A DNA stretch of 64,000 bases from Methyloterricola oryzae (lineage in GTDB: Bacteria > Pseudomonadota > Gammaproteobacteria > Methylococcales > Methylococcaceae): assembly GCF_000934725.1 (NCBI RefSeq), contig NZ_JYNS01000001.1, positions 744,001-808,000 of the forward strand. Reading direction: 5' to 3'. Both the position numbers and the translations under genes were made by a program. The notes beneath the pieces were generated by a model. The model saw only the letters and a program-made list of their open reading frames with translations, ran no database searches and had not been told where the DNA came from. Shown here piece after piece: positions 739-10,246 of the stretch (its first letter is position 1; every line of letters begins with the position of its first letter).

Positions 739-898
739 CGGAGCCTCAGGGGGCGTGAAAAATCGTAGCGCGCGGCCCAAGGGCAAGGAGCCCGGAGCGC
801 AGGAACCGCAGTGTACGTGGGGTACATGAGGACTCCGAGCAACGCGCGACGCAGCAATCGGGACGCGCAGTAGATTTTTTGACCGCCTCTCAGGTCCG
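739..898. repeat. MITE-like intergenic repeat with imperfect terminal inverted repeats
   Basis: The ends are imperfect inverted repeats of about 25 bases: the left end (739-765) reads toward GGGGGCGTGAAAAATC and the right end (873-898), read on the other strand, toward GAGGCGGTCAAAAAATC. Inside is a short palindrome around TGTAC...GTACA (about 812-826) and GC-rich arms that can also pair. The right end runs through the stop codon of the minus-strand gene at 890. Non-coding elements of this general design are widespread in GC-rich gammaproteobacteria; that comparison is from memory. Confidence 0.55.
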
Positions 899-2257
899 CT
901 CCAGAGCCCCGTGGACGATGATATCGTTGTCCAAGGCATGGTAATGGCACTTGTCGATGCATAGCAGCGGTCGGTCCACAGACTGGCAGGGCTCGCTGAC
1001 GGCCTTGACGCCGCCGATGAGTTTGGGCGTCACCGTGATGACACAGTAATCCACCAGGCGGTCACGAAGGAAGCAGTTGATGACCGCGCCGCCACCCTCC
1101 ACCATGATGCTGCGCAGCCCCATGCCCCGCAGCACCTGCAGGGTGGCGCGCAAATCCACCATTCCGTGTTCGTTCTTTCCCGTCACCACGACCTGCGCGC
1201 CGCGTTCCGACAATTCGGCCATCCGTTCCGGCGGCGCTTCCTCGGTGGTAATGATGATGGGCTTGCCGCCATCCCCACTAAGAAGCCTCGCATCGAGCGG
1301 GAAGCGCAGGGTCTTGTCCAACACCACAGCCCGTGGCGCCGGGCCAAATTCACCCACCGGAGGCAGTTGCGGATCGTCGCTGAGGACCGTATTGATGCCC
1401 AGCAGCAGGGCGTCATGCCGCGCACGCAGGAAATCGGTCAAGCGCACGGCGCGCTCGGAGCGCAGTTCGTCACCGCAACCGGCGTCCAGCGCAATGCTGC
1501 CATCCAGGCTCTGGGCATAGGCCAGGGTCACGAAGGGGGCGGCCGACTCCGACTGCCGGTGCGCCTCCAGCCGATCCAACAGAGGCTCGATGAACACGAA
1601 CTCGGTGGATTCCTCGGCGTTCATGCGCAAGGAAAGCAGGTGCTGCATCTTGCGCGCCTTGGTGCGGAGGTACCCCTCGTTCTCGGCATTGAACGGGATC
1701 TCGATGGGAATGCGCTCGGTGACATCCACCCCCAGTTCGCGCAGCTCGCCGATCTTGCGCGGATTATTGGTGATCAGGCGCACGGAATGCACCTTCAAAT
1801 CCTTCAGGATGGCCGCGGCAATGCCGTAGTCGCGTTCGTCTTCCCGGTGACCCAGGCGCAAATTCGCCTCCACCGTATCGAGCCCCTGGTCTTGCAGGTT
1901 GTAGGCCTGCAGTTTCTTTAGCAGGCCGATGCCACGCCCTTCCTGGCGCAGGTAGAGAAGAACGCCGCACTCGCTGCCGCCGATGATGGCCAGCGCCCGG
2001 TCCAACTGATCGCCGCAGTCGCAGCGCATGGAGCCGAACACGTCGCCGGTGAGACACTCGGAATGAACCCGCACCGGCACGTCCAACGCGCCTTCCACAT
2101 CGCCCTTCACCAGCGCCAGATGCTCCTTGTTGTCCGGCCGGTTCTCGTAGTAGTAGAGCATGAACTCGCCGTGGCGCGTGGGAATTCGCGTGCGCACCAC
2201 GTTGCGCACCATGGGCTGGCCGGAGGACGATTGCTGGCTGGTGGATCGCTGGGTCAT
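890..2257 (-). CDS. GTP cyclohydrolase II fused to RibD-type pyrimidine reductase
   Basis: The 455-residue protein has two riboflavin-pathway domains. Residues about 25-200 form GTP cyclohydrolase II, with the zinc-site cysteines in the ECLTG...SMRCDCGDQL region and the EGRGIGLL segment. Residues about 240-455 match the RibD C-terminal reductase (FVTLAYAQSLDGSIA, LLLGINTVLSDDPQL, VEGGGAVINCFL). The usual partner domains, DHBP synthase (RibB) and the RibD deaminase, are absent. The cyclohydrolase product is the 2,5-diamino pyrimidinone phosphate; coupling it directly to a reductase would suit a reduce-first route as in fungi and archaea, but that is inference. I chose the ATG at 2255-2257 because homology begins shortly after it; 26 upstream codons remain open. 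I saw no FMN riboswitch upstream. No other rib genes are nearby. Confidence 0.9.
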   Translation of the reverse strand: MTQRSTSQQSSSGQPMVRNVVRTRIPTRHGEFMLYYYENRPDNKEHLALVKGDVEGALDVPVRVHSECLTGDVFGSMRCDCGDQLDRALAIIGGSECGVLLYLRQEGRGIGLLKKLQAYNLQDQGLDTVEANLRLGHREDERDYGIAAAILKDLKVHSVRLITNNPRKIGELRELGVDVTERIPIEIPFNAENEGYLRTKARKMQHLLSLRMNAEESTEFVFIEPLLDRLEAHRQSESAAPFVTLAYAQSLDGSIALDAGCGDELRSERAVRLTDFLRARHDALLLGINTVLSDDPQLPPVGEFGPAPRAVVLDKTLRFPLDARLLSGDGGKPIIITTEEAPPERMAELSERGAQVVVTGKNEHGMVDLRATLQVLRGMGLRSIMVEGGGAVINCFLRDRLVDYCVITVTPKLIGGVKAVSEPCQSVDRPLLCIDKCHYHALDNDIIVHGALERT

Positions 2258-2642
2258 GGAGTCTACTGTGAAAATCGCGCCGGAAAGGGCTCGGCGGGCT
2301 CGATGCCTAATATAGCCTGCCGCCGCACCAGGCAAGCACCTATTTTACCTGGGATTGACCCGTGACTGGACGAATTCCGCATTTCAGCGGCGTCCGCCGG
2401 TATTGCGGGATTGGTCCGGGACTTGCAGTTCACCGAGGGCAGAGGCCGGCGCGGCGCCACCTTTCGGAGCGAAGGGGCGACGCCGCGACAGCCGGGATAA
2501 CAAGAAATGCCGCTTACGCGGCCGGGGCACAAGAGGGCGGGCATGGCGTTGCAATGCACCAAGAAGGATCGGACGCACTTTTTTAACGCAGCAATGGCTG
2601 GCACCCTATAGCCCCTACGCGCACGATCCGAGGATACCTTCC
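2258..2642. other. Intergenic region between divergent genes
   Basis: These 385 bases separate the minus-strand riboflavin fusion gene from the plus-strand Anbu gene and must hold both promoters. A TATATT-like element at about 2311-2316 read on the minus strand is a possible -10 for the riboflavin gene. I looked for an RFN-type FMN riboswitch and did not find its conserved boxes. Frames that cross the region have no ribosome-binding site and no recognisable protein. Confidence 0.5.
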
Positions 2643-3401
2643 ATGACCTATTGCCTGGCCATCAAGCTCGACGAGGGCCTGGTTCTCGCCTCCGACTCGA
2701 GAACCAATGCTGGCGTTGATTACGCGAGCGTTTACAGCAAGATGTACCGATTCGACCTGCACCAGGACCGCTTCATGGTCCTGCTGTCCGCGGGCAACCT
2801 GGCCACCACTCAAGCGGTGGTGAACCAACTGCGGCGCGATCTGGAGAACCCGGCGTCTATGATGAACCTGAATACCGCACCTTATCTCTTCGATGCCGCG
2901 ACGTACGTGGGCAACGTCAGTGTGAGCGCGCAACAGAGCCACTCCCTGGCCATGCAGCGCAGCGGCATCAGCACGGAGGCCAGCTTCATCCTGGGAGGGC
3001 AGATTCAGGGGCAGCCGCCGGAAATCTTCCTGATCTATCCCCAGGGCAATGCCATTACCCCGTCCCTGGACACGCCCTATCTGCAGATTGGCGAGACCAA
3101 GTACGGCAAGCCGGTCCTGGTACGCACCATGGCGGCGGGCCTGTCCCTCGAAGATGCCGCGCGCTGCGCCCTGGTGTCCCTGGATTCCACCATGAAGAGC
3201 AATATCTCCGTGGGACCGCCGCTGGAATTGATGATTTACCGGACGGATTCGTTTCAGGTTGGGCATTACCTCAACTTTGACGTGTCCAGCACGTTCTACA
3301 ACGATATGCGCAATCAATGGTGCGAAGGCATCCGCAGCGCCTTCGACCGCCTGCCGCGCTTCGACTGGGAAGTGCCGCCGGGCGTGGAAGCGGTTAATTG
3401 A
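2643..3401 (+). CDS. Anbu-type proteasome-like peptidase
   Basis: The 252-residue product belongs to the Ntn-hydrolase proteasome/HslV superfamily and matches the bacterial Anbu family (COG3484). It starts MTYCLAIKLDEGLVLASDSR: Thr2 would become the N-terminal nucleophile after removal of Met, and the DSRTNAG and YSKMYRF segments sit where the fold's Asp and Lys are expected. ATG 2643 is preferred over an upstream in-frame extension of 96 codons because it gives the exact Anbu N-terminus and has a GAGG ribosome-binding site upstream. Anbu genes typically neighbour transglutaminase, alpha-E and circularly permuted ATP-grasp genes; here two giant transglutaminase/DUF2126 genes follow. Substrate and physiological role of Anbu remain unsettled. 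Confidence 0.92.
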   Translation: MTYCLAIKLDEGLVLASDSRTNAGVDYASVYSKMYRFDLHQDRFMVLLSAGNLATTQAVVNQLRRDLENPASMMNLNTAPYLFDAATYVGNVSVSAQQSHSLAMQRSGISTEASFILGGQIQGQPPEIFLIYPQGNAITPSLDTPYLQIGETKYGKPVLVRTMAAGLSLEDAARCALVSLDSTMKSNISVGPPLELMIYRTDSFQVGHYLNFDVSSTFYNDMRNQWCEGIRSAFDRLPRFDWEVPPGVEAVN

Positions 3402-6853: not shown

Positions 6854-6943
6854 ATCCGGATCCGGCCGGCGGCGGCAGGCTGAAGTCCACACGTCTTCCG
6901 CCCGACCGGCCCGGTAACGTCCGACACTGACCACGCAGAGAGC

Positions 6944-9900
6944 ATGAATACCCGAATCGCCATCAAGCACTCGATCCAGCAGCGTTTCGACCGCAAGGTC
7001 GGATTGTCCACCCATTGGCTGCGGCTGCGCCCCGCGCCGCACACCCGCAGCGTGATCGAGGCCTATTCGCTCAAGGTGCAGACGGAACCGCATTTTCTCA
7101 ACTGGCTGCGCGACCCCTACGAAAACCATCTTGCCCGCCTGGACCTGCCCGAGCCTGTGACGGACCTGCGCCTTGAGGTGGAAGTGCTGGCGGAACTGCC
7201 CCAACTCAACCCCTTCGATTTTCTGGTGGAACCCCATGCCGCCAGCTTTCCGATCACCTACCCCGAGCAGTTGGTGAAGGAGCTGAAACCCTATCTGTGG
7301 GTCGGCAAACCCGGCCCCCGCCTGAGCCAATGGTTCGACGCCCTGGACATCGAGCCCGGCTACATCGTGGAACGCCTGGGGGACATCAATCTCAGGTTCT
7401 ACAACCAACTGCCCGCCTTCGGCACCCTGCAACCGGGTGCCGTGGACCCCGAGGTGGTGCTGGCGCGGGGTGGCGGCTCGGCCTGGGAAGTGGCCTGGAT
7501 CGCGACCCTGACCCTGCGCAAGCTTGGCCTTGCAGCCCGCTTCACCTCCGGTTATCACGTGGCGCTGGCGCCCGGCGAAGGCGGCTACGACATGGCCCGG
7601 CTGCACGCCTGGACCGAGGTCTATCTGCCCGGCGCGGGCTGGGTCGGCCTGGATCCGGCCGGCGGCGTCTTCGCGGCCGAAGGCCATATCCCCCTGGCTT
7701 CGGCCCCGGAGTATCTCAGGACCCTCCCGGTCATGGGCTATTTTGAACATTGCCAGGTGGAAAGCGAGGAATCCGCCAGCGTGCGCCGGCTCTCCCCCGC
7801 GGCCACGGCCTGGCCCTTCTCCGAAACCCAGTGGACGGATATCCGCGCCCTGGGTCAAAAGGTGGACGCCGACATCAAAGCACAGGGCATCGATCTCAAC
7901 CTGGGCCAAAGCCTGTCCTTTGTCTCCGCCTACAACCCGTCCGCGCCGGAATGGACCAGCACCGCGCTGGGACCCGACAAGACGCGGGCCGCCGAGGAAT
8001 TGCTGCTGCGCCTGAAAAAGCGCCTCGCCCCTGGCGGCTTGCTGCATCTAGGTCAGAGTGAATGGATGGGCGGCGAGCCTCTGCCCCGCTGGCGGCTCAG
8101 CGCCTTTTTCCGCGGCGACGGCTTTCCGATCTGGCGCGACGAGGCTTTGATCGGCCGCCGACAATCCGCGTTCAAGCTCAACCGCGAAGACGCCGCCCGC
8201 TTCGCGGAAGTGCTGGCCACCAGCCTCGGCCTGGCCAAACACTTCGTCACACCGGCTTATGAGGACGGACTGCATCAATTCTGGCTGCATCGACCCAGCC
8301 TGGGCGGCACCCCGGAACCCGAGGATTTGCGCGACCCGGAACGCCGTCGCGCACTGGCGGCGCAGTTGACCGGTGATCACAGCGAGCCGGCCGGGTATGT
8401 GCTGCCGCTGCGCTGGGATCCCGTCACCGATGCCTGGTCTAGCGGAACCTGGTCATTCCGGCGCGGCCGGCTGGTGCTCGTGCCCGGCGACTCCGCGCTG
8501 GGCTATCGCCTGCCCCTGGAGAGCCTACCCGTGGGGGATGCGGCGGCCGCCGACATGGAGCCCGAACGTTGCCAGTTCGACGAGCGGCCCTTGCTGCCGC
8601 GGGATTTCGGCGAACTCAACGCGCGCTTTGTGAGCGTTAGTCCGGCTTCGGCCGAACTGGAAACCGCGGACCCCGCCCGCACCGAAGCGCGCCCGCCCAG
8701 AACCGCCCTGTCCGTGCAGGTGCGCCACGGGCAGCTGTATGTGTTCATGCCGCCACTGTCCCATCTGGAGCATTACCTGGCGCTGGTCGCCGCCATCGAA
8801 TCCAGCGCGACGCAGGTGGGTATCTCCGTCATGCTGGAAGGCTACGAACCGCCGGAAGACCACCGGCTGTGGCGCCTGACCCTGGAGCCGGACGCCGGCT
8901 GCCTGAAATTGTGCCTGCCCGAGGTGGCGTCCTGCGCCGCACAGATCGAACTGCTGGGGGCCGCATTCACCGAAGCGGCGAACGCGGGCCTGCGCGCCGA
9001 GCGCATCATGAGCGACGGCAAGAGCCTGCCACCCGGCGGCCGCGCCGACATCCGCCTGGGCGGCACCGTGCCGGCCAAAAGCCCCTTCTTCAAACGTCCG
9101 GAACTGCTGCGCTCGCTCATCGTCTACTGGCAGCGCCATCCCAGCCTGTCGTATCTGTTCGCGGGCCGTTCCATTGGTCCCGGGGGCACGGCACCCCGAC
9201 CCGACGAGGGCCGTGACGATGCCCTGTACGAGTTGAGCATCGCCCTAGAGCGCATCCCCAAGGGCGAGTGCCCAACGCCCTGGACGCCGGACCGGCTGTT
9301 GCGCCATCTGCTCGCCGACCCGGCCGGGGACATGCGCCGCGCCGAGATTCGGGTCGACCAACTCTACCCGCCCGATCGCTCCAGCCTACGTCTGGGCCGC
9401 ACCATCCTGCGCGCCTTCGAGACACCGCCGCACCCGCGGCTTGCGGCGCTTCAGGGTCTGCTGGTCAAGGGCTTGCTGGCCCGCTTCGCCCTGAGTCCGT
9501 ACCCGGAACAGCTGCAAGAGTGGGGCTCGGCACTGCACGACCGCTTTATGCTGCCGGCCGTGCTGTGGGCGGACCTCCTCGATGTGCTGAATGATCTGAA
9601 CGCCGCGGGCCTGGCCTTCCAGCCCGACTGGTTCCAGCCGCTCCTGGAACTGCGTTTCCCCGTAATCGGGAAAGTGACCATGGGTGACATTTCGCTGGAA
9701 CTTCGCGAGGCGCATGAGCCTTGGCCGGTGCTGGCGGAGGAAACCACCGCAACCGGGACAGCCCGCTTCGTGGACTCGGCCAACGAAAAGGTGCAGGTCC
9801 GCTGCAGCGGCGTCACGCCCTCTCGTCACGCCCTGATTTGCAACGGTTACCGCGTTCCGCTCAGGTCCACCGCGATCCAGAGCGAGATGGTCGCCGGAAT

Positions 9901-10246
9901 TCGCTTCAAAGCCAGCGACCCCGTATCGACCCTGCACCCGACCCGATTCGCCGTGGCGGCCCTGGAACTGGATCTGGTAGACACCTGGACCGGCCACGTC
10001 ATCGGTGGATGCACCTATACGCCCCCACGCCCTCAATTGTTCGGCGCGATCACAGCCCCGCCACGCAGCAGCGAGAGTGGGGAAGACATTCCGCCACCCC
10101 CTCCGCACGCGGCCCCCGTGCTGATGCCGCCCTTCAGTTCCGGCGGAACCTTCCTCGGCAAAAGCGGCGGCGGCGTCCGCGCGGCCATTCCTGCGGTGCA
10201 AACGGATGAACGCTACCCCTATCTCCTGGATCTGGTAAGGCTTTAA
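6944..10246 (+). CDS. Transglutaminase/DUF2126 paralogue, predicted inactive
   Basis: This 1100-residue protein is collinear with the preceding gene product over its full length, which points to a tandem duplication. The transglutaminase cysteine is gone: residue 180 is Ala in GGSAWEV, at the same residue number as Cys180 of the neighbour, while the His (LHAWTEVY) and Asp (VGLDPAGG) remain. In the DUF2126 part GGEPTF has become GQSLSF (Glu to Ser323), GGGNH has become GGRAD (701-702), VNIHP has become LCLPE and HRAEF has become RRAEI. Structural motifs such as EGYEPP, HPSLSYLF and ALHDRF are kept. An open frame of 1100 codons with retained fold suggests a selected pseudoenzyme, not decay. A proline/glycine-rich stretch occupies residues about 1030-1085. 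Confidence 0.88.
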   Translation: MNTRIAIKHSIQQRFDRKVGLSTHWLRLRPAPHTRSVIEAYSLKVQTEPHFLNWLRDPYENHLARLDLPEPVTDLRLEVEVLAELPQLNPFDFLVEPHAASFPITYPEQLVKELKPYLWVGKPGPRLSQWFDALDIEPGYIVERLGDINLRFYNQLPAFGTLQPGAVDPEVVLARGGGSAWEVAWIATLTLRKLGLAARFTSGYHVALAPGEGGYDMARLHAWTEVYLPGAGWVGLDPAGGVFAAEGHIPLASAPEYLRTLPVMGYFEHCQVESEESASVRRLSPAATAWPFSETQWTDIRALGQKVDADIKAQGIDLNLGQSLSFVSAYNPSAPEWTSTALGPDKTRAAEELLLRLKKRLAPGGLLHLGQSEWMGGEPLPRWRLSAFFRGDGFPIWRDEALIGRRQSAFKLNREDAARFAEVLATSLGLAKHFVTPAYEDGLHQFWLHRPSLGGTPEPEDLRDPERRRALAAQLTGDHSEPAGYVLPLRWDPVTDAWSSGTWSFRRGRLVLVPGDSALGYRLPLESLPVGDAAAADMEPERCQFDERPLLPRDFGELNARFVSVSPASAELETADPARTEARPPRTALSVQVRHGQLYVFMPPLSHLEHYLALVAAIESSATQVGISVMLEGYEPPEDHRLWRLTLEPDAGCLKLCLPEVASCAAQIELLGAAFTEAANAGLRAERIMSDGKSLPPGGRADIRLGGTVPAKSPFFKRPELLRSLIVYWQRHPSLSYLFAGRSIGPGGTAPRPDEGRDDALYELSIALERIPKGECPTPWTPDRLLRHLLADPAGDMRRAEIRVDQLYPPDRSSLRLGRTILRAFETPPHPRLAALQGLLVKGLLARFALSPYPEQLQEWGSALHDRFMLPAVLWADLLDVLNDLNAAGLAFQPDWFQPLLELRFPVIGKVTMGDISLELREAHEPWPVLAEETTATGTARFVDSANEKVQVRCSGVTPSRHALICNGYRVPLRSTAIQSEMVAGIRFKASDPVSTLHPTRFAVAALELDLVDTWTGHVIGGCTYTPPRPQLFGAITAPPRSSESGEDIPPPPPHAAPVLMPPFSSGGTFLGKSGGGVRAAIPAVQTDERYPYLLDLVRL

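Follow-up and report, generated by a model that had tools for sequence, protein, structure and literature searches.

A full-length DUF2126 paralogue stripped of its catalytic motifs is maintained beside its intact sister gene in three bacterial phyla and is a probable pseudoenzyme subunit

Two adjacent genes of Methyloterricola oryzae raise the question of why a full-length copy of an enzyme that has lost its catalytic motifs should be kept directly behind a copy that has retained them. The genes lie in a 64,000-nucleotide stretch of contig NZ_JYNS01000001.1, called the window here, and their products are designated P1 (upstream) and P2 (downstream); P3 stands for the single canonical DUF2126 member, as found in other genomes. 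P1 and P2 are the only full-length copies in their own genome. Each matches the Pfam families Bact_transglu_N, Transglut_core and DUF2126 above the cut-off, and the three domains of P2 follow one another as they do in the DUF2126/COG4196 transglutaminase-amidoligase proteins (PF08379, PF01841 and PF09899). The two proteins align over 1053 residues with 42% identity (BLASTP), and P2 is approximately 43–46% identical to the canonical P3 proteins. P2 belongs to DUF2126 (PF09899) with a score of 830 bits against a cut-off of 27, spanning profile positions 1–771 of 826, compared to 1216 bits for P1. No NCBIfam model matched either protein. The first-pass annotation, which was made from the letters alone, had described full-length, collinear tandem paralogues with an intact 3.3 kb frame in P2, and this is borne out.

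The same is true of the residue changes that it listed. The Cys at position 180 of P1 is replaced by Ala in P2 and the transglutaminase His and Asp are kept (His229/221 and Asp245/237 in P1/P2, respectively). In the DUF2126 part, GGEPTF has become GQSLSF, VNIHP has become LCLPE, GGGNH has become GGRAD and HRAEF has become RRAEI. The motif set of P1 is complete (GSCRD, GGEPTF, VNIHP, GGGNH and HRAEF), and P1 is presumed to be the catalytic member of the pair, its activity being assumed from these intact motifs. Coordinates are collected in Table 1.

Table 1. Location of the P1–P2 pair, its neighbours and related loci. Plain numbers are window positions; other locations carry a locus or contig handle.
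Feature	Location	Strand	Remarks
GTP cyclohydrolase II gene, window	890-2335		Divergent to the pair
Anbu, HslV/proteasome-like Ntn-hydrolase homologue	2643..3401	+	Upstream neighbour of P1; Proteasome Pfam match
P1	3503..6853	+	Transglut_N + Transglut_core + DUF2126; intact frame; TTG start; 1116 aa
Cys180 codon of P1	4040..4042	+	Presumed transglutaminase nucleophile; GSCRD invariant in all P1/P3
Gap, P1 stop to P2 start	6854..6943	+	90 nt
P2	6944..10246	+	Full-length pseudoenzyme paralogue of P1; intact frame; ATG start; 1100 aa
Ala180 codon of P2	7481..7483	+	P1 counterpart is Cys
GTP cyclohydrolase II gene, genome G004	L043:11064-11738		Divergent to the pair
Second Anbu of the window's genome	L067:6837-10379; G000:C1 ~606.8-610.4 kb		
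P2 of a Myxococcales MAG	L113:3835-7050		
ParA/MinD-like P-loop proteins	L033:3562-4377; L036:3743-4504; L045:13529-14251; L048:13144-13848		
~700-aa DUF2126 paralogues	L109:11261-12844; L115:9318-11414; L117:1-1998; L062:3995-6118		

The pair is not unique to this genome; a Cys-to-Ala change confined to it had been named by the first-pass annotation as a sign of decay. Complete pairs were counted at 23 loci, the window and 22 others, in at least 23 genomes of three phyla, and in every one of them (Gammaproteobacteria, Planctomycetota and Myxococcota) a P1-type gene is immediately followed by P2. Two further genomes, which are outside this count, carry P1 and P2 genes at contig ends. Many genomes of the same family encode P2-type proteins with ~45–60% identity to the window P2, and the P1-type neighbours upstream in same-family genomes are ~67–75% identical to the window P1. 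The genomes of other relatives have P3 alone, and some carry P3 together with the pair. A scan of named genomes placed P2 in Methylotetracoccus, Methylolobus, Methylumidiphilus and uncultured MAGs within the Methylococcaceae and, beyond that family, in Chromatiaceae and Thiotrichales MAGs, in Rhodopirellula/Aporhodopirellula (Planctomycetota) and in one Myxococcales MAG. In a set of 311 genomes from the order, P2s with high scores are restricted to the family of the window, and in the planctomycete order they occur in 1 of 196 genomes. Class-wide, a P1-type protein is present in 4 of 369 genomes, the same four that hold P2; here, P1-type means a score of at least 2120 bits, all other members reaching 1835 bits at most. 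As the pair is both rare and patchy, its transfer as one unit is suggested.

The two genes are also closely linked in arrangement. The stop codon of P1 and the start codon of P2 share an ATGA overlap in 20 of the 22 non-window pairs, those at L117 and L090 being counted using an in-frame alternative P2 start; the genes are separated in the window and in two other pairs. Over eight species pairs, dN/dS was 0.05–0.19 for P2 and 0.035–0.10 for P1, values that describe the clade and not the window genes, whose genome had no near relative in the comparison. The first-pass annotation had named a ratio near one as the mark of decay, and the values for P2 are far from it. A decaying duplicate heading for loss would have explained the missing catalytic motifs and the rate of evolution of P2, which is about twice that of P1. 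Instead, intact frames of ~1100 residues persist in three phyla under these low ratios, and P2 forms one old clade with newly conserved positions, so that decay is rejected on dN/dS and distribution and is regarded as extremely improbable.

In a maximum-likelihood tree, P2 sequences form one clade (SH-aLRT 100), as do P1 sequences (SH-aLRT 100), and the subclades of the two broadly mirror each other. All aligned P1 and P3 sequences have GSCRD and intact DUF2126 motifs; P2s lack the latter and, with one exception, the Cys. GGEPTF, E-x-NIHP, GGGNH, HRAEF and LEFR, which are fully or almost invariant throughout P1 and P3, are altered in all P2s. Positions invariant in P1/P3 and lost in P2 include C180, R181, G331, P333, T334, D339 and K382, as well as E665, N667, H704, N711, H712 and E829. 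At the same time, P2 has 29 invariant positions of its own, the Glu equivalent to P1 E809 is retained, and the transglutaminase His and Asp are mostly kept and nearly invariant. The Cys site is occupied by A, S, P, V or D, the single exception among readable P2s being the one at L113. By its alignment, therefore, the P2 clade is defined by loss of the DUF2126 motifs and not by loss of the Cys, which was probably secondary and repeated. This changes the earlier expectation of a conserved Ala-180 clade always beside a Cys-180 gene: the clade does always stand beside a GSCRD-bearing P1, but residue 180 is not always Ala, and a single Ala-180 lineage is rejected.

The exceptional P2, from the Myxococcales MAG, has GSCWD and the transglutaminase His and Asp and has lost the DUF2126 motifs. 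Its sequence suggests either that the ligase site decayed before the transglutaminase site or that the Cys was regained. This Cys-bearing P2 may sit at the base of the clade, which would mean a single Cys loss, or within it, which would require several losses or a regain; an AU test speaks against the basal placement (p = 0.036), with long branches involved. Given the near-invariant His and Asp and the Cys of the Myxococcota protein, some P2s may keep transglutaminase activity.

These retained residues bring in the possibility that P2 was neofunctionalised, that is, that it acquired a new residue set for another reaction or ligand and acts in the same pathway as P1 without being its subunit. 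The 29 P2-specific invariants, the conserved His, Asp and Glu and the purifying selection are all in keeping with this. The replaced catalytic positions vary among P2s, however, as seen at the Cys site, which is expected of relaxed sites and not of re-tooled ones, and genes that are constantly adjacent and mostly overlap by ATGA are more in keeping with a subunit. Neofunctionalisation is thus considered unlikely.

The structural model of P2 (pLDDT 72.8) matches the bacterial transglutaminase-like protein 3isr over residues 1–286 (Z 21.5), and residues ~292–907 match glutamine synthetases (GS) and YbdK with Z scores of ~9–10 and an rmsd of ~4 Å over 250–280 residues. Support for a GS-like fold of the DUF2126 part is moderate and by itself not decisive. 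The P1 model was poor (pLDDT 54.4) and could not usefully be searched for fold matches. From the matches of the P2 model, DUF2126 is likely to be a GS-fold carboxylate-amine ligase, which agrees with the name given to it in Pfam. Going by the order of the motifs, GGEPTF would resemble the first metal-binding strand, GGGNH the motif NGSGMH of GS and LEFR the motif RIEVR of GS. The DUF2126 motifs would then be metal and ATP ligands, an assignment that comes from fold similarity and motif order and not from a residue-level superposition. P2 has lost these motif residues and, judged by the model, has kept the fold.

The first-pass annotation had also proposed Anbu as a partner, and P2 could in principle scaffold or regulate Anbu or the ATP-grasp/Alpha-E proteins, without catalysis, in place of P1. 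Upstream sequence could be read for 19 pairs, and on that side Anbu directly adjoins 2 of them, the window pair and a pair in one further genome. Anbu homologues adjoin canonical DUF2126 proteins and rarely the pair, ATP-grasp/Alpha-E genes are beside the pair in few loci, and the constant neighbour is P1. In addition, the window's own genome has a second Anbu ~140 kb away, beside ATP-grasp and Alpha-E genes and with no DUF2126 gene there. CP-ATP-grasp was found in all 23 pair-bearing genomes tested, which would suit such a scaffold, but also in 9 of the 12 genomes of the family that lack the pair, and so the ATP-grasp link does not discriminate. Consequently, Anbu is rejected as a conserved partner on synteny, ATP-grasp is rejected as a discriminating companion, and a scaffold for either is judged improbable, more so than neofunctionalisation.

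The second Anbu is 73% identical to the window Anbu and is divergent from the CP-ATP-grasp and Alpha-E genes. A GTP cyclohydrolase II gene is divergent to the pair both in the window and in genome G004. Anbu is located between this gene and the pair in the window only; G004 shares the arrangement and lacks Anbu at the locus, so the place of Anbu beside the pair was gained or lost locally.

The reading that we hold to be probable is that P2 serves P1 as a dedicated pseudoenzyme subunit. In its favour are the single clade, the constant adjacency, the gene overlap, purifying selection, motif loss, the P2-specific invariants and the transglutaminase- and GS-like folds. Against it are the 90-nt gap in the window, the two other separated pairs, the kept His and Asp and the Cys of the Myxococcota P2. 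The core of the earlier proposal, that P2 is maintained as a non-catalytic partner of P1, is thus supported, and a physical complex of the two is what we infer.

A history consistent with these results would begin with a bifunctional ancestor, in which a transglutaminase-like Cys enzyme was fused to a GS-fold amidoligase (DUF2126). After gene duplication, the ligase motifs would have disappeared from the downstream copy, as did the Cys nucleophile in most lineages, and this copy would have retained its fold to become an obligate partner. P1 and P2 would be co-translated and form a heteromer, in which P2 may act like a prozyme by activating or stabilising P1, by completing intersubunit sites or by holding substrate. 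GS-fold enzymes form active sites between subunits. The pair would probably work within the peptide-ligation or tagging chemistry that others have suggested for Alpha-E and circularly permuted ATP-grasp genes, and the ATP-grasp gene is present in all pair-bearing genomes tested. Whether the full form of this proposal holds, we regard as evenly balanced: P1 and P2 would be an obligate heteromeric transglutaminase/amidoligase in which the full-length paralogue, dead in both respects, is indispensable as a structural or allosteric subunit, and the pair a horizontally transferred, so far undescribed bacterial system of the prozyme type for peptide ligation or tagging.

The closest parallel is found in the prozymes of trypanosomatids, namely AdoMetDC/prozyme and the deoxyhypusine synthase pair, where a dead paralogue is kept with its active sister and where interaction and activation have been demonstrated (PMC5201418, PMC3663545). 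P2 is likewise a dead paralogue that is kept as one clade with a presumed active sister. The enzymes are unrelated, P1–P2 is a tandem pair from bacteria in which two domains have degenerated, and interaction and activation would apply to it by analogy. Another inactive and bacterial transglutaminase-like protein is encoded beside an ATP-grasp gene; unlike P2, it is a membrane protein with a periplasmic domain, has no DUF2126 and has no described active tandem paralogue. Band 4.2 (EPB42) is a eukaryotic membrane-skeleton protein, for which we know of no tandem active sister and no ligase domain. The human protein is an inactive transglutaminase homologue (PMC10318531).

As described in the available excerpts of two reports, the Anbu operon comprises Anbu, ATP-grasp, Alpha-E and one transglutaminase-like protein (PMC6376114, PMC5666114), and in the excerpt of the former Anbu showed no detectable peptidase activity and no specific complexes were seen between products of the operon (PMC6376114). 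The window resembles this operon in having Anbu upstream of the pair; its ATP-grasp and Alpha-E genes are elsewhere in the genome. These excerpts do not mention an inactive full-length transglutaminase paralogue (PMC6376114, PMC5666114), which the window has. In the literature searched, with incomplete coverage, there was no description of such an active/dead pair, DUF2126 was not found by name and PF09899 was named in one paper; nor did the literature yield a substrate or reaction for the DUF2126/Alpha-E/ATP-grasp/Anbu group, which is widespread in bacteria. An active/dead pair that crosses phyla, usually with overlapping genes, means that at least this branch of the gene group probably acts as a heteromer. 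If so, this might account for the little activity seen with single proteins of the group, and P2 would be an unusual prokaryotic pseudoenzyme, with two degenerate catalytic domains maintained by selection. The pair points to an undescribed enzyme complex with its own dead copy as a component.

Two other kinds of gene were observed around these loci. In one genus, the gene for a ParA/MinD-like P-loop protein precedes P1, and in another family such a gene follows ATP-grasp/Alpha-E and a transglutaminase; it is possibly a further member of the DUF2126/Alpha-E/ATP-grasp/Anbu gene group. Finally, a DUF2126 paralogue of ~700 residues without the transglutaminase part is sometimes near the P1–P2 pair, and in L109 and L115 it adjoins a separate, short transglutaminase.
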